From Polaromonas sp. (lineage in GTDB: Bacteria > Pseudomonadota > Gammaproteobacteria > Burkholderiales > Burkholderiaceae_C), in contig JACMQR010000274.1 in NCBI GenBank assembly GCA_014376885.1, positions 1-12,079 of the forward strand: 12,079 nt of DNA, given 5' to 3'. The notes under the pieces were generated by a model that saw only the letters and a list, made by a program, of their open reading frames with translations, did not search any database and was not told the DNA's origin. The position numbers and the translations under genes are program-made. This document shows, piece after piece, positions 1 to 12,079 of this stretch (its first letter is position 1; each line of letters starts with the position of its first letter).

Positions 1-2459
1 TCAAGGAGCACACGGTCGAGCTGCCGATTGCCGATATCCACGTCACGCCTGACAACGAAGCCGCCTTGCGCGCCGCGCTGGCAACGGCGCTGGAGCACGG
101 CAAGGGCGTGGTGCATGTGCTGGCAACGCTTGACGGCCTGCACGAGGCGATGGTGGCTGGCACCAGCACCCAGGCGATTGGCAAGCTCGAAGCCTTCTCG
201 ACCAAGCGCGCCTGCCCGGTGTGCGCCACCTCGTATCCCGAACTCGACCCGCGCCTGTTCAGCTACAACAGCAAGCACGGCTGGTGCCCGGACTGCGTCG
301 GCACCGGCGTCAAACTGACCAAAGACCAGCGCCAGGCCTTCGACGATTCGGTGCTCGGCACCGACGACAACAAGGGCCGCGAACAGACCTTCGGCGAACC
401 CGAAACCGACGATGTGCTGGACACCGTTTGTTCCAACTGCCAGGGAACGCGGCTCAATGCCACGGCGCGGGCGGTGCGGTTTGGCGCCGATTTTTCAAAA
501 TTGATAGCTGCTGATGCCCGGTCATCAAGCGCAAAAGCCGGTTTTGATCATGAACTTGAGATTTCTAACGACAGCGCAGGCCAGGGCTGGCCGATCACCG
601 CCATCGCCCGCCTGAGCGTTACCGCCATCCGCGCCTGGGTGGACACGCTGGCGCTGACCGGCCGCGCAGCCGGCATTGCCCGGGACCTGATTCCCGAGAT
701 CAAAAGCCGGCTCGAATTTTTGGAAGACGTCGGCCTGGGCTACCTCACGCTCGACCGGGGCGCGCCGACGCTGTCGGGCGGCGAGGCGCAGCGCATCCGC
801 CTGGCGGCACAACTGGGCTCCAATTTGCAGGGCGTTTGCTACGTGCTTGACGAGCCCACCATTGGTCTGCATCCGCGCGACAACCAGATTTTGCTGGGCG
901 CTTTGGGCAAGCTCAGTGAACGCGGCAACACGCTGGTGGTCGTCGAGCACGACGAGGACACGATCCGCCGCGCCGACAACATCATCGACATCGGCCCCGG
1001 CGCTGGCAAGCGCGGCGGCACGCTGGTCGCGCAGGGCACGGCGGCGCAAATCTCAGCCGTTCCCGATTCGCTGACGGGCCGCTACCTGGCGAATCCGCTG
1101 ATCCATCCTTTGCATGCGCGCCGCGAAACACGTCCAGGCACAGCAGCATTGGCCAGTGCAGCTGAAGCGGGGTCGGATCCCAATTTCGCCCTCCCAGGCC
1201 AGCCAGGTTTCCAGGCCCAATCGAAATTGGGCTCTGACCCCGTTTCAGCGGATCAAGCGGGCGCAAGCGTCGCCAAACCTCTCAGCAAGGCAAAGCAAGC
1301 GGCGCTGAAAGCCCAGGCCCTCAAAGCCGCCGCTGCCCAAGCCAGCGCCTTGCACAACGCCGCGCCCACTGCCGCCACGCCGTACACCGCCTGGCTCAAG
1401 GTCATCAACGCCAGCCTGCACAACCTGAAAAACGTCTCGGTCGAGGTGCCGCTCTACCGCCTGGTCGCCGTCACCGGCGTCTCGGGCTCGGGCAAGTCCA
1501 CGCTGGCGCGCGACGTGCTGCTGGCCAGCGTCCAGGCGAGCGTCACGCAGCGTTCGACCCGGGCCGGGCGCGACGCCGACGACATCGGCCAGCACGCGGC
1601 CTGGACCGGCTGCCTGACGCTGGAAGGCTACCGCGTCGTTGACCGCGTCCTTGAAGTGGACCAGACGCCGATCGGCAAGACGCCGCGCTCCTGCCCGGCG
1701 ACCTACATCGGTTTCTGGGACACCATCCGCAAGCTGTTCGCCGACACCCTGGAAGCCCGGGCGCGCGGCTATGCGGCCGGGCGCTTTTCCTTCAACACCG
1801 GCGAAGGCCGCTGCCCGACCTGCGAAGGCGCGGGCGTGCGCACCATCGGCATGAGCTTTCTGCCTGATGTGAAGGTGCTGTGCGAAACCTGCCACGGCGC
1901 GCGCTTCAATCCCGAAACGCTGGCCGTCACCTGGCGGGGCAAAAGCATCGGTGACGTGCTGAAGATGGAGGTCGACGAGGCGGTCGATTTTTTCGCTGCC
2001 ATGCCCGCCATCGGCCACCCGCTGCAGTTGCTCAAGGACGTCGGCCTGGGCTACCTGACGCTTGGTCAGCCGTCGCCCACGCTGTCCGGCGGCGAGGCGC
2101 AGCGCATCAAGCTGGTCACCGAACTGTCAAAGGTGCGCGACGACATCACCCGGCGCGGGCAAAAAGCGCCGCACACGCTGTATGTGCTTGACGAGCCGAC
2201 CGTCGGCCTGCACATGGCCGATGTCGAAAAGCTGATCCATGTGCTGCACCGGCTGGTCAACGGCGGGCACAGCGTGGTCGTCATCGAGCACGACCTGGAT
2301 GTGATTGCCGAGGCCGACTGGGTGATCGACCTGGGGCCGGACGGCGGCAATGCCGGCGGCCATGTGGTCGCCAGCGCGCCGCCCGAGGCGGTGGTGGCGC
2401 TGGGCACCGCCACCGGCGAGGCGCTGGCGGCGGTGATGGCGCGCCAGAACCGAGTCTGA
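1..2459 (+). CDS. uvrA: UvrA-type excinuclease ABC subunit A, C-terminal part (5' end outside window)
   Basis: ABC-type ATPase that recognises damaged DNA in nucleotide excision repair and loads UvrB. The open frame runs from base 3, aligning near residue 195 of E. coli UvrA, so the start is missing. Visible in order: zinc motif CPVC...CPDC (about 213-300), CSNC followed by GTRLN (about 430-455), ABC signature [11 protein letters not shown] (about 771-803), Walker [12 protein letters not shown] (about 840-872), an Ala/Gln-rich linker (about 1090-1385), second Walker [10 protein letters not shown] (about 1480-1506), [11 protein letters not shown], zinc module CPTC...CETC (about 1810-1895), second [11 protein letters not shown] (about 2082-2114) and [11 protein letters not shown] (about 2180-2212). 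The stretch between the first zinc motif and CSNC is much shorter than in E. coli UvrA, where the UvrB-binding region lies. From memory this resembles the second half of the ~1,900-2,000-residue double UvrA of Burkholderiales, so it may not be the canonical UvrA (inference). Two repeats, at 491-570 and 1161-1249, are translated in frame. Confidence 0.93.
491..570 (+). repeat. Dispersed repeat, copy A (inside uvrA, sense, translated)
   Basis: Contains TTGATAGCTGCT at 501-512, CAAGCGCAA at 526-534 and GGTTTTGA at 540-547. An outer inverted repeat TCAAAA (495-500) / TTTTGA (542-547) and an inner GATG (513-516) / CATC (523-526) could form a hairpin. Spacing from ATAGC (504) to CAAGCGC is 22 nt and to TTTGA is 39 nt. 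The copy at 4161-4218 shares TTGATAGCTGCT, GCCCG and CAAGCGCAA at identical spacing. It is read in uvrA as a segment containing [17 protein letters not shown]. coli UvrA, as I recall it, has no equivalent residues between the GTRL-containing segment and the following helix, so this looks like an in-frame insertion. The outer boundaries are approximate. Confidence 0.78.
1161..1249. repeat. 89-bp palindromic element inside the uvrA linker
   Basis: Two 28-nt arms, 1161-1188 and the reverse complement of 1222-1249, match at 25 of 28 positions by my count. The arms carry a GGGGTC[AG]GA[GT]CCCAATTTCG core and flank a 33-nt loop (1189-1221) holding CCAGG three times. The element lies in the linker between the two ATPase modules and is translated as a Gly/Ser/Pro/Gln-rich segment, including [15 protein letters not shown] and [11 protein letters not shown]. 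Both arms therefore yield a similar GSDP motif. The GGGGTCAGA...CCCAATTT core resembles repeats that I recall near REP-associated tyrosine transposases (RayT) in proteobacteria. That link is from memory and no transposase is in the window. Confidence 0.85.
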
Positions 2460-2465
2460 AAGCGC

Positions 2466-2530
2466 TATACAAAAAATAGCAGTAAACAAAAGCTGTACAA
2501 GCACAAGGCGGGGGTTTGATGTAAAAAAGT
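2466..2530 (+). repeat. Dispersed repeat, copy B (intergenic, after uvrA)
   Basis: Begins 7 bp after the uvrA stop. It carries ATAGC at 2476, CAAGCAC at 2498 (+22) and TTTGA at 2515 (+39), the same spacing as copy A, with AAGGCG at the position corresponding to AGGCGC of the copy near 9714. A short outer match TACAAA / TTTGATGTA fits a stem. Apart from this copy, the 178-bp gap between uvrA and the next gene holds only that gene's ribosome-binding site; I see no convincing promoter or terminator in it. Confidence 0.72.
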
Positions 2531-2637
2531 CACTGACGCCATGGCGACAGGCTTTCAGGTGTTGCCCTGATGGCAGGAACGGCCAAGCTGGGGGATCATG
2601 GCGTTTTGCCAGTTGCCAACCCTCAGGAGGATTTTTC

Positions 2638-3615
2638 ATGCAACGCCGCCATTTACTGCAATCTGCCGCCGCCCTGGCTGCGCCTGCCCTGGGTTCACTG
2701 GGCACGGCCCGCGCGCAAGCGCCGGCCTTTCCGGTGCGTCCGCTCAAGCTGCTGGTCGCCTTTCCGGCGGGCGGGCCGACCGACATCACCATGCGCGCGC
2801 TGGCCGACGGCGCGTCCAAAATTCTCGGCCAGCCGGTGATTGTCGAGAACAAGCCCGGCGCCGGCGGCACCCTGCCGGCCCAGCAGCTGCAAAGCTCTGC
2901 GCCCGACGGCTACACGGTCGCGCAGATTCCGCTGGGCGTTTTTCGCCTGCCCTACACCACCAAGATCAACTGGGACCCGGTCAAGGACATCAGCTATGTG
3001 CTCAACCTCACCGGCTATGCCTTCGGCGTGGTGGTGCCGACCGATTCGCCGCTCAAGAGCTGGACGCATTTTGTCGGCTGGGCCCGGGCCAATCCCGGCC
3101 AGCTCAGCTACGGCTCGACCGGCACCATGACCAGCCCGCACCTGACGATGGAGCTGATCGCGCAAAAGCTCAACCTGCAATTGCTGCATGTGCCCTACAA
3201 GGGAAGCGCCGACCTGATGCAGTCGATTCTGGGCGGCAACATCATGGCCGCCGCCGACTCCACGGGTTTTGCGCCGCAGGTCGAGGCCGGCAAGCTGCGC
3301 GTGCTCAACACCTGGGGCGAGCAGCGCCTGGCCAAGTTTCCCGATGCGCCCACGCTCAAGGAACTGGGCCTGGACCTGGTGCAGAACTCGCCCTTCGGCC
3401 TGGGCGCGCCGCGCGGCACGCCGCCCGCCGTGGTCAAGCGGCTGCACGATGCCTTCAAGGCCGCGATGGAGCAGGACAGCTACAAAACCGCGCTCGGCCG
3501 CTACGACATGGTGCCGATGTACATGGGCACGGCCGGCTACAGCAAGTTCGCCCAGGACACCTTTGTACGGGAAAAGGCGCTGATCGACAAGCTCGGGCTG
3601 GCCCGGCCGTCCTGA
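2638..3615 (+). CDS. Bug/TctC-family tripartite tricarboxylate transporter substrate-binding protein
   Basis: Periplasmic solute-binding protein of the Bug (TctC) family, which delivers carboxylates and similar small molecules to TctA/TctB-type membrane components or acts as a sensor. The ligand cannot be deduced. The start ATG is fixed by a near-perfect AGGAGG at 2625-2630, 7 nt upstream. An N-terminal signal peptide is clear: MQRRHLLQ, then an Ala/Leu core and an AQA cleavage site near residue 28. The arginine pair suggests possible Tat export (inference). The mature protein opens with the family pattern FPVRPLKLLVAFPAGGPTD, followed by VENKPGAGG, an HVPYKGSADLMQ segment and a C-terminal FGLGAPRGTP-type segment. 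The 325-residue length is normal. No tctA or tctB gene is adjacent, so it is an orphan copy, as is common in Comamonadaceae and Bordetella. It is convergent with the HAD gene. Confidence 0.92.
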   Translation: MQRRHLLQSAAALAAPALGSLGTARAQAPAFPVRPLKLLVAFPAGGPTDITMRALADGASKILGQPVIVENKPGAGGTLPAQQLQSSAPDGYTVAQIPLGVFRLPYTTKINWDPVKDISYVLNLTGYAFGVVVPTDSPLKSWTHFVGWARANPGQLSYGSTGTMTSPHLTMELIAQKLNLQLLHVPYKGSADLMQSILGGNIMAAADSTGFAPQVEAGKLRVLNTWGEQRLAKFPDAPTLKELGLDLVQNSPFGLGAPRGTPPAVVKRLHDAFKAAMEQDSYKTALGRYDMVPMYMGTAGYSKFAQDTFVREKALIDKLGLARPS

Positions 3616-3616
3616 A

Positions 3617-3652
3617 CCAGGCTGCCTGCCAGGCCCCCCGCCAGGCCCTCAC
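3617..3652. repeat. Three 12-bp units beginning CCAGGC
   Basis: CCAGGC recurs at 3617, 3629 and 3641, exactly 12 bp apart, filling the 33-bp gap between two convergent genes and touching the HAD stop codon. The second halves of the units differ. The GC-rich stretch has no T-run on either side, so it does not look like an intrinsic terminator. It may be a short decayed tandem repeat or chance in GC-rich DNA. Confidence 0.4.
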
Positions 3653-4470
3653 CCGGCGCGCGCGGCCAGCAGCGCCGCCGCCATTTCGGCAAAGCCGGCG
3701 CCGCGCGCGCCCTGGGTGACATAGCGCGGCCGGTGGTCCAGCTGCGCCTCGAAGTCGCGCACATTGGCCACGCCGATGCTGTTGCCGATGGCCTCGAACA
3801 TCAGCTGGTCGTTGGTCGAGTCGCCGACAAACACCCACTGGTCCATCTCGGCCGCCAGGTCGCGGCCCAGCAGTTCGCGAACGATCCAGCGCGCGCCGCC
3901 CAGCTTGTTGTGGCTGCCAAACCAGCCGTTGATGTGGATCGAGCTGACGCTGGCCTGCATGCCCTCGCTGTGCATGATCTGCAGCGCCTGGGCAATTCCT
4001 GCGGCGCCCAGCCGGGTGAATTCGCTGTGGTCGATCGCCAGGTCGGTTTCGCGCCCGGCGCTGTCCCGGGCCAGCGCGGCGCCGGCAACTTCCCGCAGCA
4101 CCCGCCGGGCCACCCGCCCGATACGGGCCTGGTTGGCCAGGCGCAGCGCTTCTGGCTGCTGGTATATTTTTGATAGCTGCTCAGGCCCGTCCGACAAGCG
4201 CAAGTAGCAATTTTTGGCGAGAAAAAGCGCCACCGCACCGTTTTCGGCCACGATGGCGTCGACCGGCCAGGCCAGCGCGAACGGCGCGCTCCAGCCGGCC
4301 GGCCGGCCGGTGACGGCAATCACCGGCAGGCCGGCGGCCTTCAGCCTGTGCAGTGCCGCCAGGGCGTCGGGCGTGATCGCGCCCCGGGTGGTCAGGGTGT
4401 CGTCGATGTCGGTCAGGACGCCGGTGATTTTGCGCCGCGCCTGCAGCGGCCAGTGGGTAAGAGCGAGCAT
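3649..4470 (-). CDS. HAD-superfamily (type IIB, Cof-like) phosphatase
   Basis: Cytosolic haloacid-dehalogenase-fold phosphohydrolase of the Cof / sucrose-phosphatase-like branch; the substrate is unknown. All four motifs are present: motif I DIDDTL with nucleophile D21 and acid D23, motif II TGRPAG with T54, motif III K189 in HNKLGG, and motif IV GDSTND with D217 and D221. The region between motifs II and III is the large type-II cap, containing a conserved-looking AGRETDLAIDHSEF stretch. The 273-residue length is normal for the group. The start at 4470 gives a 20-residue lead before motif I; its ribosome-binding site is weak (GAGAA). Residues about 85-104 are encoded by a dispersed-repeat copy read antisense, probably on the cap surface. 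It is convergent with the binding-protein gene and divergent from ahcY, with no obvious functional link to either. Confidence 0.9.
   Translation of the reverse strand: MLALTHWPLQARRKITGVLTDIDDTLTTRGAITPDALAALHRLKAAGLPVIAVTGRPAGWSAPFALAWPVDAIVAENGAVALFLAKNCYLRLSDGPEQLSKIYQQPEALRLANQARIGRVARRVLREVAGAALARDSAGRETDLAIDHSEFTRLGAAGIAQALQIMHSEGMQASVSSIHINGWFGSHNKLGGARWIVRELLGRDLAAEMDQWVFVGDSTNDQLMFEAIGNSIGVANVRDFEAQLDHRPRYVTQGARGAGFAEMAAALLAARAG
4161..4218 (+). repeat. Dispersed repeat, copy C (inside the HAD gene, antisense, translated)
   Basis: Carries TTGATAGCTGCT at 4170-4181, GCCCG at 4185-4189, CAAGCGCAA at 4195-4203 and a T-run ending TTTGG at 4213-4217. The three blocks in common with copy A have exactly the same spacing as there; the TTTG block is at +40 instead of +39. 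The host gene runs on the opposite strand and reads the element in the frame CAG-CTA-TCA, giving residues around EQLSKIYQQ. The reading frame stays open through it. Confidence 0.8.
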
Positions 4471-4531
4471 CGGGAAATTCTCGCATGCGGGTCATCGGGG
4501 CCCGGCCCAAGCCCGGCGCTGGCCCGTTCTG

Positions 4532-4537
4532 TACAAT
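4532..4537 (+). promoter_or_regulatory. Putative -10 box of the ahcY promoter
   Basis: TACAAT lies 9 nt before the first paired base of the SAH riboswitch, so transcription would start at the 5' edge of the aptamer, as expected. No good -35 box is visible at 16-18 nt upstream, where the sequence is GC-rich. The assignment rests on position and the -10 match alone. Confidence 0.45.
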
Positions 4538-4545
4538 CACCTTTC

Positions 4546-4612
4546 TCCTGAGGAGCGTTGCAACCCACACCATGTGGTCTAGGCTCAGGATTGTCAACCT
4601 GCAACTACGCTC
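4546..4612 (+). promoter_or_regulatory. S-adenosylhomocysteine (SAH) riboswitch aptamer
   Basis: Matches the known SAH riboswitch architecture directly upstream of ahcY. P1 is TCCTGAG (4546-4552) pairing with CTCAGGA (4584-4590). The conserved GAGGAGCGTTGCAA segment follows the 5' P1 strand. P2 is CCACA (4565-4569) with TGTGG (4573-4577). A small P4-like helix TTGT/GCAA lies at 4591-4604. The pseudoknot is GAGCGT (4553-4558) with ACGCTC (4607-4612). These strands agree with the Ralstonia aptamer as I remember it. SAH binding is known to raise expression of SAH-recycling genes. The identification combines visible pairing and gene context. Confidence 0.92.
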
Positions 4613-4642
4613 ACCTGCATGTGCCTGAATGCCGGGTGAGTG
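4608..4642 (+). promoter_or_regulatory. Candidate riboswitch expression-platform hairpin
   Basis: CGCTCACC (4608-4615) can pair with GGTGAGTG (4635-4642; 8 bp with one G-U), with an inner GCAT (4617-4620) / ATGC (4629-4632). Its 5' strand includes CGCTC, which is five of the six bases of the pseudoknot strand 4607-4612. Hairpin and pseudoknot therefore exclude each other. No U-run follows, so it is not an intrinsic terminator. The remaining ~80 nt to the ahcY start show no further strong structure to my reading, apart from the ribosome-binding site GGAG at 4710-4713. Confidence 0.6.
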
Positions 4643-4721
4643 AATTCCCAATTCTCCTGGCAGGCGCTTGCGGCCGTGGCTATCTTGCCCAGCTTGAACC
4701 CTCGATTTTGGAGCCCTTCCC

Positions 4722-6158
4722 ATGAACGCCATGCTAAAAACCATCCTGAATACCGACCACATCATCGCCGACCTGTCGCTGGCCGCCTGGGGCCGCAAGG
4801 AGCTGAAAATCGCCGAGACCGAAATGCCCGGTCTGATGGCGATCCGCGAGGAATTCGCCCAGGCCCAGCCGCTCAAGGGCGCGCGCATCACCGGCTCGCT
4901 GCACATGACCATCCAGACCGGCGTGCTGATCGAGACGCTGCAGTCCCTGGGTGCCGAGGTGCGCTGGGCGTCGTGCAACATTTACTCGACCCAGGACCAC
5001 GCGGCCGCCGCGATTGCCGCCGAAGGCACACCGGTGTTCGCCATCAAGGGCGAAACCCTGGCCGATTACTGGGACTACACGCACCGCATTTTCGAGTTCA
5101 CCGGCCACAAGGGAACGCCTGAAGAAGGCCCGAACATGATCCTGGACGACGGCGGCGACGCCACACTGCTGATGCACCTGGGCACCCAGGCCGAAACCGA
5201 TGCCAGCGTGCTCGACCATCCCGGCAGCGAGGAAGAAATCTGCCTGTTCACCGCCATCAAGGCCAAGCTGGCAAAAGACCCGACCTGGTACAGCCGCCGC
5301 CTGAAAAATATCATCGGCGTGACCGAGGAAACCACCACCGGTGTGCTGCGCCTCAACGAAATGTCGGTCAAGGGCACGCTGGCGTTTCGCGCCATCAATG
5401 TCAACGACTCGGTGACCAAGAGCAAGTTCGACAACCTCTACGGCTGCCGCGAGTCGCTGGTCGACGCCATCAAGCGCGCCACCGATGTGATGATTGCCGG
5501 CAAGGTCTGCGTGGTCGCCGGCTATGGCGACGTCGGCAAGGGCTCGGCCCAGGCGCTGCGCGCCCTGTCGGCCCAGGTCTGGGTGACCGAGATCGACCCG
5601 ATCAACGCCCTGCAGGCGGCGATGGAGGGCTACAAGGTCGTGACCATGGAATATGCCGCCGACAAATGCGACATCTTCGTGTCGGCCACCGGCAACAAAA
5701 ACGTCATCACCTATGCCCACATGGCGGCCATGAAGGACCAGGCCATCGTTTGCAACATCGGCCATTTCGACAATGAAATTGATGTGGTGTCGCTGGAAAA
5801 ATGCACCTGGGAAGAGATCAAGCCGCAGGTCGACCATGTGATCTTTCCGGACGGCAAACGCATCATCCTGCTGGCCAAGGGCCGGCTGGTGAACCTGGGT
5901 TGCGGCACCGGCCACCCGAGCTTTGTGATGTCGTCAAGCTTTGCCAACCAGACGATTGCCCAGATCGAGTTGTTCACCAAGCAGGCCGACTACCAGGCCG
6001 GCAAGGTCTATGTGCTGCCCAAGCACCTCGACGAAAAAGTCGCCCGCCTGCATTTGAAAAAGGTCGGCGCCACGCTGTCCGAGCTGAGCGACGAGCAGGC
6101 AGCGTACATCGGCGTGTCCAAGGCCGGTCCGTACAAAGCCGACGCCTACCGCTACTAA
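4722..6158 (+). CDS. ahcY: Adenosylhomocysteinase (SAH hydrolase)
   Basis: NAD-dependent cytosolic enzyme that splits S-adenosylhomocysteine into adenosine and homocysteine, relieving product inhibition of methyltransferases and feeding the methionine cycle. The start ATG has GGAG 8 nt upstream; a second ATG lies three codons in. The N-terminal substrate domain begins [20 protein letters not shown] and contains [16 protein letters not shown] and the ILDDGGDAT segment. The NAD-binding Rossmann loop GYGDVGKG is at residues 267-274, then [19 protein letters not shown], and the C-terminal KADAYRY that ends all family members in a similar way. At 478 residues it is longer than the human enzyme (432) because of the bacterial insert around residues 145-190 ([14 protein letters not shown] and onward). 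It is controlled by the SAH riboswitch in its leader and closed by a strong terminator at 6167-6214. Confidence 0.98.
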
Positions 6159-6166
6159 AATGTCAG

Positions 6167-6214
6167 GCCGCCCCGCCCGGCCGCTTGCGCGGCGCGCGGG
6201 GCGGCTTTTCTTTT
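6167..6214 (+). terminator. Intrinsic terminator after ahcY
   Basis: Ten-base-pair GC stem GCCGCCCCGC (6167-6176) with GCGGGGCGGC (6196-6205), enclosing a second stem GCCGC/GCGGC (6180-6184 and 6189-6193) with a TTGC loop, followed by TTTTCTTTTT at 6206-6215. It lies 9 bp after the ahcY stop and should separate ahcY from tlyA-metF-rlpA. Confidence 0.88.
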
Positions 6215-6215
6215 T

Positions 6216-6280
6216 ATGACCCAAATAGCCTTGGGCGCTTTCAAGCGGTGCGCCGCGTGCTACTGAAATGATAGTTTTCT
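6216..6280 (-). repeat. Dispersed repeat, copy D (intergenic, before tlyA, minus strand)
   Basis: Read on the minus strand: AAAACTATCATTTCAGTAGC (6259-6278), AAGCGC at 6240-6235 (+23 from the G of GTAGC at 6263) and TTTGG at 6225-6221 (+38). The order and spacing match the other copies to within 1 nt, but the sequence is more diverged and the TGCT after TAGC is lost. It fills the space between the ahcY terminator and the tlyA start. I see no confident promoter for tlyA here. Confidence 0.6.
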
Positions 6281-6310
6281 TGCAACGAATGCAGCTTTGG
6301 TGCTGCCCCC

Positions 6311-7357
6311 ATGCCTATGCGCGCTGACCTCTTTCTTGTCGAACACGGCCATGCCACCACCCGCTCCCAGGCCCAGCGCCTGATCGCCTCGGGCGTGCAG
6401 TGGCGGGTCGACGAGGCCGTGGCCTGGAAAAAGGTGGCCAAAAACGGCGATGAGATTCCCGGCAACGCCGAGCTGCAGGTGCTTGACACCACCGAGGCCA
6501 AGTACATTTCCCGCGGCGGCCTCAAGCTCGAAGGTGCGCTGCGGGCCACCGGCCTGGATGTGACCGGCCTGCGCTGCCTGGACATCGGCCAGTCCACCGG
6601 CGGCTTCACCGACTGCCTGCTGCAGCATGGCGCCGCGCACGTGGTCGGTGTCGATGTCGGTCATGGCCAGTTGCACGACAGCCTGCGCGCCGACGACCGT
6701 GTGGTTTGCATCGAGGGCGTGAACGCGCGCTCGCTGACAGCGGGCGACCTGACCGAGCATTTCCGCCGCGCCCTGCATGGCAGCAGCTTTGGCGACGACG
6801 ATGCGTTCGCCGATGTCGAGGAGGACGGCTACAGCGACCAGGACATGGACGGCTTCGATCCGGTGTTCGACTTCCTGACCGGCGACCTGTCGTTCATCTC
6901 GCTGACGCTGGTGCTGCCCGCCGTGGTGCGTCTTCTCAAGGCCGACGGCCAGCTGCTGATGCTCGTCAAGCCGCAGTTCGAGCTGCAGCCCGGCCAGATC
7001 GGCAAGGGCGGCATCGTGCGCGATGCGGTGCATTTCGAATTTGTTGAAAAGCGCCTGAAAGATGCCTGCGCCGCGCTCGGCCTCGACGTGCTGGCCTGGC
7101 TGGCTTCGTCGATCGACGGCGGCGACGGCAACCGCGAGTTCTTCATCCAGGCCAAAAAAGGCGCTGCCGTGCAGGGCGAAGACCAGCCATTGCTCGTGGC
7201 GCCGCAGCGCAAGGGCGTCAAGCGGCTGCCGCGCAGCGAACTGCGTGCCTCCCGCGAGCCGCACGAGGATTCCGAACTGGCCCATGCCGGCCAGCCCGGC
7301 CCGGCGCGCGCCAAGCGGCGCGATAAAAAGCCGGGCGACCACTCCACCAGCGATTAA
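6311..7357 (+). CDS. tlyA: TlyA-family rRNA (2'-O) methyltransferase / S4-domain protein
   Basis: Methyltransferase of the TlyA/FtsJ-like family; characterised members 2'-O-methylate cytidines in 16S and 23S rRNA using SAM. The N-terminal S4 RNA-binding domain (residues about 3-60) contains RSQAQRLIASGVQW. The Rossmann domain has SRGGLKLEGAL (K72), the SAM loop LDIGQSTGGFTDCLLQ (residues 90-105; usually GASTGG), GVDVGHGQL, GDLSFISL (D192) and LVKPQFE (K220), consistent with the K-D-K-E tetrad. At 348 residues it is longer than the usual ~250-280. There is an acidic insert at about 157-182 and a basic tail from about residue 295. Either ATG 6311 or ATG 6317 (MRADLF, the more typical family start) may be used; neither has a strong ribosome-binding site. 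metF follows after 9 bp. Its reaction makes SAH, the AhcY substrate. Confidence 0.9.
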   Translation: MPMRADLFLVEHGHATTRSQAQRLIASGVQWRVDEAVAWKKVAKNGDEIPGNAELQVLDTTEAKYISRGGLKLEGALRATGLDVTGLRCLDIGQSTGGFTDCLLQHGAAHVVGVDVGHGQLHDSLRADDRVVCIEGVNARSLTAGDLTEHFRRALHGSSFGDDDAFADVEEDGYSDQDMDGFDPVFDFLTGDLSFISLTLVLPAVVRLLKADGQLLMLVKPQFELQPGQIGKGGIVRDAVHFEFVEKRLKDACAALGLDVLAWLASSIDGGDGNREFFIQAKKGAAVQGEDQPLLVAPQRKGVKRLPRSELRASREPHEDSELAHAGQPGPARAKRRDKKPGDHSTSD

Positions 7358-7366
7358 GGGTTTGCG

Positions 7367-8197
7367 ATGAACACTCCGGTCAGTTTTGAATTTTTCCCGC
7401 CGAAGACGCCCGAGGGCGCTGACAAGCTGCGTGCCACGCGCCAGCTGCTCTACGCCCACCGCCCCGAATTTTGCTCGGTCACCTTTGGCGCTGGCGGTTC
7501 GACGCAGGACGGCACGTTCAATACCGTCCAGGCGATTCTGGCCGAGGACATGCCGGCGGCCTGCCACTTTTCATGCGTCGGCGCTACCAAGGCCACCGTG
7601 CGCCAGCAACTCGCCAGCCTGCAGGCCATGGGCGTCAGGCGCCTGGTGGCGCTGCGCGGCGACCTGCCCAGCGGCTATGGCGCAGGCGGCGAATTTCACT
7701 ACGCCAGCGATTTGGTGGCCTTCATCCGGCAGGAAACCGGCGCTGCTTTTCATATCGAAGTGGGCGCCTACCCCGAAATTCATCCACAGGCCAAGTCCGC
7801 CGAGTCGGACCTGCAGGCCTTTGCCGCCAAGGTGAAGGCCGGAGCCGATTCGGCCATCACCCAGTATTTTTTCAATTCGGACGCCTACTTCCGGTTTGTC
7901 GACGATGCCTACCACCTGGGCGCCGACGTGCCGGTGGTGCCGGGCATCATGCCGATCACCAACTCCAGCCAGCTGATCCGGTTTTCCGATGCCTGCGGCG
8001 CCGAAATCCCGCGCTGGATTCGCCAGCGCCTGCAAGGCTTTGGCGACGACACTGCGTCGATCAAAAGTTTTGGCCTGGATGTGGTCACCGATCTGTGCGA
8101 CCAGCTGCGCATGGCCGGCGTGCCGGGCATCCATTTCTACACCCTGAACCAGGCCGCAGCGACGTCTGAAATCATTCGCCGGTTAATGCCGGTTTGA
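7367..8197 (+). CDS. metF: Methylenetetrahydrofolate reductase
   Basis: FAD-dependent reductase converting 5,10-methylene-THF to 5-methyl-THF, the methyl donor for methionine synthase. It begins with the diagnostic VSFEFFPPKTPEG; E8 corresponds to the catalytic glutamate (E28 in E. coli). Then come SVTFGAGGSTQD, VALRGDLPSGYG with D99 (the E. coli D120 equivalent), EVGAYPEIHPQAKS, ITQYFFNSDAYFRF, PGIMPITNSSQ and HFYTLNQA at the C-terminus. At 276 residues it is the usual bacterial single-domain length without the eukaryotic regulatory domain. The start ATG is 9 bp after the tlyA stop, with GGG in the gap as a weak ribosome-binding site, suggesting coupling to tlyA. Together with ahcY it covers two steps of methionine regeneration. 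Confidence 0.97.
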   Translation: MNTPVSFEFFPPKTPEGADKLRATRQLLYAHRPEFCSVTFGAGGSTQDGTFNTVQAILAEDMPAACHFSCVGATKATVRQQLASLQAMGVRRLVALRGDLPSGYGAGGEFHYASDLVAFIRQETGAAFHIEVGAYPEIHPQAKSAESDLQAFAAKVKAGADSAITQYFFNSDAYFRFVDDAYHLGADVPVVPGIMPITNSSQLIRFSDACGAEIPRWIRQRLQGFGDDTASIKSFGLDVVTDLCDQLRMAGVPGIHFYTLNQAAATSEIIRRLMPV

Positions 8198-8922
8198 CAG
8201 GCGGCGGGCTCTTTGCTCTCCGAAGCGCTTCACGGCGCGCCCTGACCACCGGTCTGGTGGCGCTGCTGGCCGGCTGCTCGGCCATGCCCGGCTCGCAGAC
8301 CCAGCCAGTCGCCGCCGCCCCGGCCGTGGCGGTGTTCTCGGTGGGCGCGCTGCAGGGGCCGGCAGCCGCCCCGGTGGCGCCCACGCAGCCCTTCAGCTCA
8401 CGCTTTAGCGACTTCATCGCCCGCCGCCTGCAGCGCCCAAGCAACGCTCCGCCCGCGCTGCCGGCCGCCGAAGCGCCCGCTGCCGCCGAGCCCGCAGTGC
8501 CGCCCGTCGATGAGAAGTACCGTCTGACCGCCGACAACGCCCGCGAGTTGGAGCGCGGTGATGCATCCTGGTATGGCAGCCAGTTCCATGGCCGGCGCAC
8601 GGCCAGCGGCGAAGCCTATGACAAGTACGCCCTGACCGCCGCCCACAAGACGCTGCCTTTTGGCACCATCGTGCGCGTGCGCAGCCTGGCGCTGGGCCGC
8701 GAGGTCGATGTGCGGATCAACGACCGCGGGCCGTTTTCGCCCGGCCGGGTGATCGACGTGAGCCAGGCCGCTGCCCATGCGCTGGGGCTCACCGGTCTGG
8801 GCGTGGCCGAGGTGTCGCTGAAGGTGGCCGCCCCGCTGGCCAAGATGGCGCCGGTGAAGCGGTCGGCCAGGAAAGTGTCGCGCCGGCCGGCCCGCTCGCC
8901 AGCCGGGGTGCGCCGCCGCTGA
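8194..8922 (+). CDS. rlpA: RlpA-like septal-ring lipoprotein (DPBB domain, no SPOR domain)
   Basis: Outer-membrane lipoprotein of the RlpA family; the Pseudomonas aeruginosa member is a lytic transglycosylase that cleaves glycan strands lacking stem peptides at the septum. The only plausible start is TTG 8194, whose TTGA overlaps the metF stop. No ATG exists between the upstream in-frame stop at 8167 and the lipobox. The signal peptide ends in LLAGC with C28 lipidated, followed by a Pro/Ala-rich linker (residues 35-105). The double-psi beta-barrel spans about 118-212: GDASWYGSQFHGRRTASGE, LTAAHKTLPFGT, VRINDRGPF, RVIDVSQAAAHALGL. E140 and D177 sit where the family's essential acidic residues are expected. 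The C-terminal peptidoglycan-binding SPOR domain of many RlpA proteins is absent; a ~30-residue Arg/Lys-rich tail takes its place. It is probably co-transcribed with tlyA-metF. Confidence 0.9.
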   Translation: MTGGGLFALRSASRRALTTGLVALLAGCSAMPGSQTQPVAAAPAVAVFSVGALQGPAAAPVAPTQPFSSRFSDFIARRLQRPSNAPPALPAAEAPAAAEPAVPPVDEKYRLTADNARELERGDASWYGSQFHGRRTASGEAYDKYALTAAHKTLPFGTIVRVRSLALGREVDVRINDRGPFSPGRVIDVSQAAAHALGLTGLGVAEVSLKVAAPLAKMAPVKRSARKVSRRPARSPAGVRRR

Positions 8923-8946
8923 GCGTGCGGCCGCATCCGCTTTTTT
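8922..8946 (+). terminator. Weak candidate terminator after rlpA
   Basis: AGCG (8922-8925) can pair with CGCT (8938-8941) around the TGCGGCCGCA palindrome, followed by six Ts at 8941-8946. The stem is imperfect and overlaps the stop codon. The position between convergent rlpA and rlmJ fits. Confidence 0.35.
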
Positions 8947-8968
8947 GCCGAGGGCGCTGAGGCTTCTT

Positions 8969-9970
8969 TCAGCCGCCGTGTTCCAGGGAAAAGCCGGCAT
9001 TGCGGTCCTGGCCGAGCAGGGCGACCATTTGCGGCAGGGCGGCGTTCAGTTCGGCCTTCAGCGTGTGCGGCGGGTTGATGATGAACATGCCGCTGGCCGG
9101 CAGGCCGGGGCGGACCACCTCGCCGGCGCTGTCGGTCGTCAGCTTGCTCGACTTGACCGTCAGCGTGGCATGCAGCCAGGGGCGCTGCGCCTTGACCGCC
9201 AGGGTCTTGAGCTTGCGCGGCAGGTCATGCGCCTCGGGCCGGGGAATGATCGGGTACCACACGACATAGGTGCCGGTGGCAAAGCGCTTGACGGCGTCCT
9301 GCATGCAGGCGGTCACGCGGGCATAGTCGCTCTTGATTTCATAGCTCGGGTCGCACAGCACCATGGCGCGGCGCGCCGGTGGCGGCAAGAAGGTCTTCAA
9401 GGCCTCGAAACCGTCCTCGCGCGCCACCGTCACCTGGCGGCCGACGCCGAGTTGCTCGATATTGCCGGTGAGCGACTTGAAGTCGGTCGGGTGCAACTCG
9501 AAGAGCTTGAGCTTGTCGCGCCCGCTCAGGAATTTCTGCGCGATGAACGGCGAGCCCGGATAGATCTTCAGGTGCGCCGGATCGTCGGTCTGGGCAAAAT
9601 GCGGGTTCAGCCCGCGCAGCAGCTCCAGGTAGTCCAGCAGGACGGGCGCCCAGGGATAGCCGGCGGCAGCGTCTGCCGCGGCTGGCGGCTTGGCGCTGGA
9701 CGCTACTTTTTTAGTAGCTGCTCCCTGCGGCGTGACCTGCACAGGCGCGGCTTTTGATGCTGAAATCAGCTTGAAGATGCCGGCGCTGGCTTCGCCGCTG
9801 GTTTCGGTGTAGTCGCCGTCCAGGCGGTACAGGCCGGCGCCGGCGTGGGTGTCGATCACGGTCAGCGCCGTGTCTTTTTGGGTCAGGTACTTCATCAGCG
9901 CAATCAGGCAGGTGTGCTTGAGAACGTCGGCATGGTTGCCTGCATGGAAGGCGTGGCGGTAGGAAAACAT
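8969..9970 (-). CDS. rlmJ: 23S rRNA (adenine-2030-N6)-methyltransferase
   Basis: SAM-dependent enzyme (YhiR family) that makes N6-methyladenosine at A2030 of 23S rRNA. I choose ATG 9970, giving MFSYRHAFHAGNHADVLKH, which matches the E. coli N-terminus (MLSYRHSFHAGNHADVLKH); a TTG 27 bp upstream would add nine non-family residues. Motifs: DTHAGAGLY (SAM loop, about residues 40-48), YPGSPFIA, FELHPTDF, the catalytic DPSYEIKSDY with D207 (DPPYE in E. coli), FATGTYVVWYP and INPPHTL near the end. It has 333 residues against about 280 in E. coli. The excess sits at residues about 67-104, encoded in part by dispersed-repeat copy E. The gene diverges from the rplM promoter, only ~40 bp separating its start from the -35 box. 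Confidence 0.93.
   Translation of the reverse strand: MFSYRHAFHAGNHADVLKHTCLIALMKYLTQKDTALTVIDTHAGAGLYRLDGDYTETSGEASAGIFKLISASKAAPVQVTPQGAATKKVASSAKPPAAADAAAGYPWAPVLLDYLELLRGLNPHFAQTDDPAHLKIYPGSPFIAQKFLSGRDKLKLFELHPTDFKSLTGNIEQLGVGRQVTVAREDGFEALKTFLPPPARRAMVLCDPSYEIKSDYARVTACMQDAVKRFATGTYVVWYPIIPRPEAHDLPRKLKTLAVKAQRPWLHATLTVKSSKLTTDSAGEVVRPGLPASGMFIINPPHTLKAELNAALPQMVALLGQDRNAGFSLEHGG
9700..9770 (+). repeat. Dispersed repeat, copy E (inside rlmJ, antisense, translated)
   Basis: Carries TTTTAGTAGCTGCT (9709-9722), AGGCGC at 9743-9748 and CTTTTGA at 9751-9757; TTTGA is 39 nt from GTAGC (9714), as in copies A and B. The CAAGCGC block is not recognisable, so this is the most eroded copy. It is read by rlmJ on the minus strand in the frame GCA-GCT-ACT, which differs from the frame used in copy C, giving residues around VTPQGAATKKVASS. 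RlmJ residues here have no counterpart in the E. coli protein. Confidence 0.62.
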
Positions 9971-11631: not shown

Positions 11632-12079
11632 TCAGGCCGGGTAAAGCGCACCCAGCACCCGCGGTCCGGCAGCGCCGGTCACGCCGGGAAGGTTGCCCGG
11701 CAGCCGCCTGAGCATCTGACGCGCCAGCCAGGCAAACGCAGCAGCCTCGACCTGCAGCGGCGCCATGCCATGCGCCTCGGAAGTGCTGACGCGCAGGCCG
11801 GGCAGTGCCGCTTGCAGGCGCTGGAGAAGGTAAATATTCAAAGCGCCTCCCCCGCAGACAATCAGTTCTGTGCTTTCCTTGCCATGGCTGTCAAGGCCAG
11901 CCGCACAAGCGCGAACCGTCAATTCGGTCAATGTATTTTGAATGTCCTCGGCGCGCTCGCTGGCAAACGGGCGGAGCTTTTCAGCCAGCCACGCCAGGCT
12001 GAACAGATCGCGCCCGGTGCTTTTCGGCAGGGGCAATGAAAAGTAGGGCTCATCGAGCAAGCTGGCCAGCAGCGCCGGA
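11632..12079 (-). CDS. anmK: 1,6-anhydro-N-acetylmuramic acid kinase, C-terminal part
   Basis: ATP-dependent kinase that opens and phosphorylates anhydro-MurNAc to MurNAc-6-phosphate during cell-wall recycling. The open frame continues off the window edge (in frame from 12078), so the N-terminal half is missing. About 149 C-terminal residues remain and follow E. coli AnmK: DEPYFSLPLPKSTGRDLFSL, ADIQ-like EDIQNTLTELTVR, the nucleotide-site segment ELIVCGGGALNIYLL, GMAPLQVEAAAFAWLA, and the ending LPGNLPGVTGAAGPRVLGALYP. It is convergent with erpA, sharing the space around the 11591-11612 hairpin. The functional theme overlaps with RlpA (peptidoglycan turnover), but the two genes are far apart and not co-transcribed. 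Confidence 0.95.
   Translation of the reverse strand, partial: PALLASLLDEPYFSLPLPKSTGRDLFSLAWLAEKLRPFASERAEDIQNTLTELTVRACAAGLDSHGKESTELIVCGGGALNIYLLQRLQAALPGLRVSTSEAHGMAPLQVEAAAFAWLARQMLRRLPGNLPGVTGAAGPRVLGALYPA

Follow-up and report, generated by a model that had tools for sequence, protein, structure and literature searches.

Six copies of one element in a Polaromonas contig

The 12,079-nucleotide stretch analysed here (the window) is contig JACMQR010000274.1 of a fragmented Polaromonas genome bin (GCA_014376885.1; 2.59 Mb in 401 contigs, 78% complete). It carries uvrA, a HAD-type hydrolase gene, ahcY, an FtsJ-type methyltransferase gene, an rlmJ-type gene and anmK. Six copies of a short dispersed element lie within and between these genes, and the core of this element turned out to be held in place between species. 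A sequence-only reading of the window had already proposed five of the copies on the grounds of rigid internal spacing, and all five hold up. The anchor [AG]TAGC is found at 504, 2476, 4173 and 9714 on the plus strand and at 6263 on the minus strand. AAGC[GA]C follows at +23 in four of the five copies (it is missing from the one at 9700), and TTTG[AG] lies at +39 in three copies, +40 in one and +38 in one. The sixth copy, weak and absent from that earlier list, was added by a position matrix built on 46 copies from the same genome bin; this set includes window copies 1, 3 and 5 and excludes copies 2, 4 and 6. Matrix scores and surroundings of the copies are as follows:

Copy 1, 490-556 (+): 54 bits; sense, in frame within uvrA, in a linker
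Copy 2, 2462-2528 (+): 33 bits; starts 2 nt past the uvrA stop codon; left tract is an A-run
Copy 3, 4159-4225 (+): 61 bits; antisense in the HAD-type hydrolase gene 3649-4470 (-), Pfam PF08282
Copy 4, 6211-6277 (-): 27 bits; between ahcY (end 6158) and the FtsJ-type methyltransferase gene (start 6311)
Copy 5, 9700-9766 (+): 49 bits; antisense in the rlmJ-type gene 8969-9970 (-), Pfam PF04378, in a linker
Copy 6, 11870-11936 (+): 20 bits, degraded; antisense within anmK, without insertion

A sequence-only model (R1), which like the matrix had some window copies among its training sequences, gave E values of 1.3e-12, 1.2e-4, 1.7e-13, 0.015 and 9.7e-11 for copies 1 to 5 and 0.0065 for copy 6; two unrelated places also received E values of 0.02-0.03. 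None of the twelve 100-kb first-order Markov shuffles (three from each of four stretches) contained a match of 14 bits or more. Copies 4 and 6 are individually weak, and their support therefore rests on orthologs. The orthologs of copy 4 score 68, 65 and 37 bits in the related genomes G052, G023 and G061. The place of copy 6 scores 40-52 bits in seven other Polaromonas, 27 in G043, 12 in G016 and 4 in G058, with negative values in G003, G013, G055 and G073. The ortholog of copy 2 in G019 reaches 43 bits. Copy 3 has orthologs of 17-64 bits in eight relatives and scores of -26, -46 and -19 in G058, G047 and G073, three genomes poor in the motif, where the hydrolase gene is some 15-30 nt shorter.

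Consensus, abundance and spread

A search of the window's genome for TTTTGATAGCTGCT with up to two mismatches returned 51 places, compared with 11 for a reversed control. Fifty of them were read (C276 was left out), and four (L020, L026, L053 and L060) were dropped as chance-like, which yielded the 46 matrix copies. In ungapped register these copies represent one element with a fixed length of about 66 bp, conservation ending at both sides. Counting from the first T of TTTT as position 0, conservation is seen in CTAY (-6 to -3), TTTT (0-3), ATAGCTG (5-11), TGCRC (29-33), GGC (38-40), TTT (44-46) and AAA (53-55); the search itself favoured positions 0-13 only. In other words, a 17-bp dyad, GCTAY-N7-RTAGC, with an A/T-rich centre is followed about 20 bp further by TGCRC and then by GGC and two A/T tracts, which are spaced about one helical turn. 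The dyad is confined to the left end, and the consensus has no terminal inverted repeats. An unbiased gapped-word search of intergenic DNA recovered the dyad as GCTA-N9-TAGC, ranked first in G023 and third in G052, where both higher-ranking words overlap it and belong to the same dyad. It occurs 35 times in G023 and 30 times in G052 (300 kb each), compared with 0-2 times in shuffles. The element also has dialects, TTGCGCA..TGCGCAA in Polaromonas and GCGCTTG..CAAGCGC in G089 and G133, which represent two other genera.

The sequence-only reading had taken the rigid spacing as a sign of a conserved folded unit, either a DNA hairpin or RNA. We reject this idea, as pairing, covariation and folding are all at shuffle level. 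RNAalifold predicted no base pair. Three candidate stems in alignment A1 (43 of the 46 matrix copies) are paired in 58.9% of cases, compared with a shuffled mean of 59.2%, and when G000, G023, G052, G089 and G133 were considered separately, at least 51 of 500 shuffles reached the observed pairing. These stems do exceed slid versions of themselves (27-40% paired in A1) because the consensus contains dyads; covariation that would preserve these dyads is not seen among the copies. Folding of the six window copies is likewise at the level of their own shuffles (z from -1.5 to +1.4), and the element matches no Rfam family at the curated score. The sole Rfam match in the window is an ordinary S-adenosylhomocysteine (SAH) riboswitch (RF01057, 4544-4619 (+), 59.6 bits) upstream of ahcY. 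The composition of the A/T tracts points in another direction. A run of at least three A or T residues is present at positions 43-46 in 166 of 186 copies (AAAA occurs 16 times, with 0.56 expected) and at positions 0-3 in 119 of 186. Since these two tracts can carry their T-run on either strand, a feature that belongs to double-stranded DNA, they point to recognition as DNA.

The element is abundant. Across five motif-rich genomes scanned, its density is 12-24 copies per 100 kb. Matches of at least 20 bits number 18 in G052, 12 in G061, 20 in G023 and none in G073 (100 kb each). There are 46 copies in G052 and 51 in G023 (300 kb each), and in the other genera 47 in G089 and 34 in G133 (200 kb each). 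Extrapolation from 200-300 kb each puts the total at about 630 copies on the G052 chromosome and about 750 on that of G023. In a genus sample of 61 genomes, 37 have at least 69 matches and 24 have at most 23, per-genome counts being floors (scoring stopped near 84 here and at 17 in the family sample); G058 has at least 75 matches in this sample, but they are weak (best E 7e-7). In the family sample, a match at E 1e-5 was obtained in 90 of 300 genomes, and by hand count 28 of 115 genera reach at least 10 matches in one genome. Among the best 80 of 118 stretches we found Acidovorax, Simplicispira, Comamonas, Giesbergeria, Ottowia, Rhodoferax, Curvibacter, Extensimonas, Paenacidovorax and Polaromonas, along with bins named only to higher ranks. 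The sequence-only reading was right that such repeats are common in Comamonadaceae chromosomes.

Gene context was assessed for 56 copies in 312 kb (the window, G052, G061 and G023, with orthologs counted separately). Twenty-two of them are inside genes (17 antisense, 5 sense), though the stretches are 85-91% coding; of the other 34, 30 are no more than 110 nt away from the 3' end of a gene. Three of 97 copies (2 of 46 and 1 of 51) form a perfect GC hairpin at their left tract, and a few copies (L145, L155 and L180) are fused to a terminator T-tract. On the G023 chromosome, for which 60 hits were mapped, strands are balanced, every tenth contains copies and no clear replichore bias is seen (15 plus and 17 minus in the first half, 18 plus and 10 minus in the second). 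Contigs C1-C3 of the same genome, which we take to be plasmids, have 2 copies in 400 kb (of 715 kb; C4-C8 were left out), compared with 51 in 300 kb of chromosome. Both of these copies (L390, near 186066 and 187421 of C1) score high, 72 and 66 bits, and are 1.4 kb apart; perhaps they sit on a chromosomal piece carried by the plasmid. The exact pattern has no occurrence in viral_contigs.

Conservation in place, gain and loss of copies

Copies at the same place in different species were also compared. Between G052 and G023, in 18 orthologous pairs, the 19 core positions are identical in 322 of 342 cells (94%), whereas the 28 middle positions are identical in 378 of 504 and the 20 low-information positions in 254 of 360. 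None of 20000 permutations reached the observed difference between core and low positions. These 18 pairs are all distinct and have partners scoring 10 bits or more; left out are the uvrA site, A_182427 (-2.2), C_193910 (-19.3) and the mis-placed C_202148, whose locus is counted as A_200176. The result is nearly the same for 12 length-equal rows taken without any score filter: 216 of 228 (0.947) for the core, 265 of 336 for the middle and 181 of 240 for the low positions. Aligned noncoding flanks beside the copies are identical at 188 of 256 positions (0.734). Middle and low positions are thus about as similar as the flanks and drift about neutrally, while the core does not. Location matters little for the core, which is identical in 142 of 152 intergenic and 165 of 171 intragenic cells (17 loci seen from the G052 side). 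Over 44 ordered ortholog pairs among G052, G061, G023 and the window, most of them counted both ways, the consensus letter is retained in 682 of 708 core, 648 of 757 middle and 284 of 379 low cells. Of the copies that could be placed, 34 of 38 are common to G052 and G023 (partner of at least 16 bits); 59 of 97 were not placeable in the other genome, the two sets of stretches corresponding only partly. The consensus that paralogs nevertheless share at middle positions is a relic of shared ancestry for at least some of the copies.

Presence/absence polymorphism between related genomes, to which the sequence-only reading had looked for a check, does exist, and it reveals more than one origin of copies. 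The uvrA copy is a net length gain: of 27 relatives in which the place was located, 21 are shorter there by 99 nt, and G003 is shorter by 78 nt, although the flanks are too diverged for a target-site duplication to be read. The linker holding copy 5 in rlmJ is missing in G013, G055 and G049. Empty sites in relatives are accordingly clear at uvrA and likely at rlmJ, but not at anmK. Here DNA and protein are equally long in motif-poor G003 and G058, and the AnmK protein aligns across the motif without a gap to a solved AnmK structure (3qbw, from P. aeruginosa); the motif arose there out of codons already present. Both routes, length gain and emergence in old codons, therefore occur. At the place of window copy 1, uvrA of G061 (L065) has an unrelated GC-rich palindromic insert; unlike inserts at one place indicate that the UvrA linker gained insertions more than once. 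Within the window's uvrA, a 28-nt inverted repeat at 1161-1249 (+), 89% complementary and with 33 nt between its arms, is apparently another in-frame palindromic repeat in a UvrA linker.

Some lineages are nearly devoid of the element. At 20 bits or more, its density per 100 kb is 0.7 in G058 (294 kb) and zero in G047 (108 kb), G073 (100 kb) and G003 (60 kb), compared with 12-33 in motif-rich G061, G019, G014, G063 and G008. Orthologs of G052 and G023 sites reach 16 bits in 13 of 16 cases in G061 and 8 of 8 in G019, but in 6 of 34 in G058, 0 of 17 in both G047 and G073 and 0 of 5 in G003; given turnover, distance may explain part of the low scores in motif-poor genomes. Worn remnants persist in G058: 294 kb of it yield 10 matches scoring 10-28 bits, and the dyad GCTA-N9-TAGC occurs 12 times, compared with 0-1 in shuffles. 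In a midpoint-rooted uvrA tree of 30 species, G003, G047, G058, G073 and G049 fall among motif-rich species. G003 groups with the window's group (support 95/99), and G047 and G058 group with motif-rich G076 (93/93); the places of G073 and G049 lack resolution. Most simply, the motif-poor lineages would have lost a reader of the element that acted chromosome-wide. The intergenic DNA of G058 has an over-represented word set of its own, TCACTNCGTGTA with its complement (L297, L298 and L329-L341), possibly a separate repeat. We take G058 to be Polaromonas sp. JS666 and G023 to be P. naphthalenivorans CJ2.

What may read the element, and how it compares with known systems

Taken together, these facts fit a DNA site with a protein reader, maintained either by selection or by biased replacement, and each copy is likely to be such a site, recognised as double-stranded DNA by a DNA-binding protein or complex. 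We infer that the reader is a protein and that the sites mark the 'own chromosome'. Our best combined explanation, a chromosome-specific array of recognition sites resembling uptake signals, is tentative and falls somewhat short of an even chance; its uptake-like component, drawn from analogy, is possible though on the doubtful side. Under an uptake-like mechanism, fragments carrying the site would be preferred in DNA uptake, as in the signals of Neisseriaceae and Pasteurellaceae, to our knowledge the only families in which sequence-specific uptake signals are established. Homologous recombination would then restore mutated copies at the same place. Such restoration would hold the core in place, emergence would be favoured in codons already resembling the site, and once the preference was lost all copies would decay. 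We prefer this way of working because it explains the strong keeping of single sites among hundreds, the same positions in close relatives and the emergence in codons. Like DNA uptake sequences, the element occurs in large excess over chance, on both strands and chromosome-wide, and is scarce in foreign DNA (the plasmid contigs of one genome and viral_contigs).

A number of observations weigh against our best combined explanation. No candidate for the reader protein was found. ComEC is present in 53 of 61 genomes and PilQ above the cut-off in 57 of 61, motif-poor ones included, so the uptake machinery does not track the motif, although a loss of specificity need not mean a loss of machinery. 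The ComEA model gave no match at the cut-off in any genome of the sample and is uninformative. Known uptake signals are far shorter: the modules here span about 66 bp in place of a short core. The interchange of A- and T-runs is not general, as tract 53-56 is an A-run in 78 and a T-run in 6 of 186 copies. Distant motif-rich species have the site at the same places in only part of the cases: 5 of 8 in G014, 3 of 7 in G063, 3 of 8 in G043, 2 of 6 in G008 and 1 of 6 in G065, a locus present in both query genomes being counted twice. The length gains at uvrA and rlmJ, together with middle positions that have a common consensus and yet drift neutrally (0.75), speak for the copying of some copies from a common source. 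Finally, the same patterns would be expected from a protein of chromosome architecture. Two side observations concern the uptake genes themselves. The ComEC domain match of G014, G015 and G053 is split by about 210-280 nt within one open frame, perhaps by in-frame insertions. PilQ frames, edge fragments excluded, form groups of about 700-795 and about 435-575 residues; the short group is made up of motif-poor genomes and may mark a separate clade.

An architectural protein is in fact close behind. The copies could be sites of a nucleoid- or chromosome-organising protein (a nucleoid-associated, segregation or replication factor), each under weak selection. Spread over the whole chromosome and both strands, scarcity on plasmid contigs, the dyad with its A/T-rich centre, the tracts and the in-place constraint all agree with this possibility, and loss of the protein would account for the motif-poor lineages. 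However, with some 700 redundant sites, selection on any single one should be very weak, whereas 94% of the core is unchanged between G052 and G023; this and the lack of a candidate here too make us regard it as somewhat unlikely. A short non-autonomous mobile element, either of the miniature inverted-repeat (MITE) kind or similar to Rickettsia palindromic elements, spread by insertion and now mostly fossil, would explain the added length of uvrA and rlmJ at their copies, the empty sites of relatives and the consensus that paralogs share even at positions now neutral. Rickettsia palindromic elements are palindromic insertions found in frame inside protein genes. The present element shares this in-frame presence, but has no conserved fold and at least one copy, in anmK, without insertion. 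A mobile element also predicts equal conservation of core and non-core positions, while we see a core conserved at fixed positions between species. The consensus lacks terminal inverted repeats, the plasmid contigs have few copies and viral_contigs none, and most placed copies are common to G052 and G023 (with the reservation, given above, that many were not placeable). Such an origin is therefore improbable.

The remaining two possibilities start from the frequent location of copies at gene 3' ends. For an RNA element at mRNA 3' ends, either a terminator or a stabiliser, this location and the few copies fused to a terminator T-tract are what one would expect. Nevertheless, we consider it very improbable: 22 of the 56 copies are inside open genes, both orientations occur, fold and covariation are lacking, A- and T-runs interchange and the perfect GC hairpin is rare. 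Least probable of all is a repetitive extragenic palindromic (REP) sequence mobilised by a RAYT transposase. In addition to the location, the high copy number and the RTAG word in the dyad are reminiscent of REP sequences, and RAYT-type matches are present in 60 of 61 genomes (above the curated cut-off in 27). These matches, however, are found in motif-poor genomes too and do not track copy number, the element has no hairpin, and 0 of 12 RAYT loci, 10 of them from motif-rich genomes, have a copy within about 1.5 kb. As RAYT loci are without flanking copies, we reject this possibility.

The element matters in several respects. In some chromosomes about 1% of the sequence consists of these sites, and no paper that we found states why their core is kept; our literature search, with most subscription papers outside its reach, returned no description of the element with a function. 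The element also accounts for odd in-frame linkers in the conserved proteins UvrA and RlmJ. As an uptake signal, it would extend sequence-specific DNA uptake beyond the two known families; as an architectural site, it would imply a new chromosome-organising protein still to be discovered. In either case, motif-rich and motif-poor Polaromonas offer a natural comparison for finding the reader. Should the element prove to be an uptake or self-recognition signal of Comamonadaceae, 66 bp long, with three modules, genus dialects and repeated loss, which by analogy with known signals is conceivable but unlikely, it would occur in between a quarter and a third of the genera sampled (40 of 115 at E 1e-5).

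Two kinds of repeats reported from Polaromonas invite comparison. The beta-proteobacterial repeat element (BRE) of Bordetella and its relatives is likewise dispersed, mostly intergenic and in part intragenic (Hot et al. 2011, PMC3110155). BRE is described as 75-91 bp long, often tandem and 69% GC on average, with 29 copies in JS666 and 4 in CJ2. Our element is abundant in G023 and scarce in G058, the reverse of this distribution if the two genomes are CJ2 and JS666; together with the GC content of BRE, and as compared by description rather than by letters, this suggests that BRE is probably another element. The second kind is listed in Table 7 of a 2017 paper (PMC5217627) among 'potential novel motifs', with no function given there: ATAGCT(N)22CAAAAG in P. 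naphthalenivorans CJ2 and GCTTAT(N)5AAGCG in Acidovorax ebreus, two separate word pairs with 125 and 114 copies in the two genomes. Both pairs fit inside the present element at the right spacing, and both are described as mostly intergenic, near genes and often between convergent genes, as ours is. Compared with that listing, we find one element of about 66 bp, family-wide and with several-fold more copies (by extrapolation), and in addition constraint in place and loss in lineages.

Further parallels are the Haemophilus uptake signal sequence (USS) and the neisserial DNA uptake sequence (DUS) (PMC7811141, PMC1939737). These signals also number hundreds of copies on both strands, in genes and between them, and they also combine a GC-containing core with A/T tracts; their accumulation is ascribed to uptake bias coupled with recombination, the cause proposed there. 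The known signals have a core of 9-12 bp or a full length of 31 bp, whereas the present element is 66 bp long, consists of three modules and belongs to a different family.

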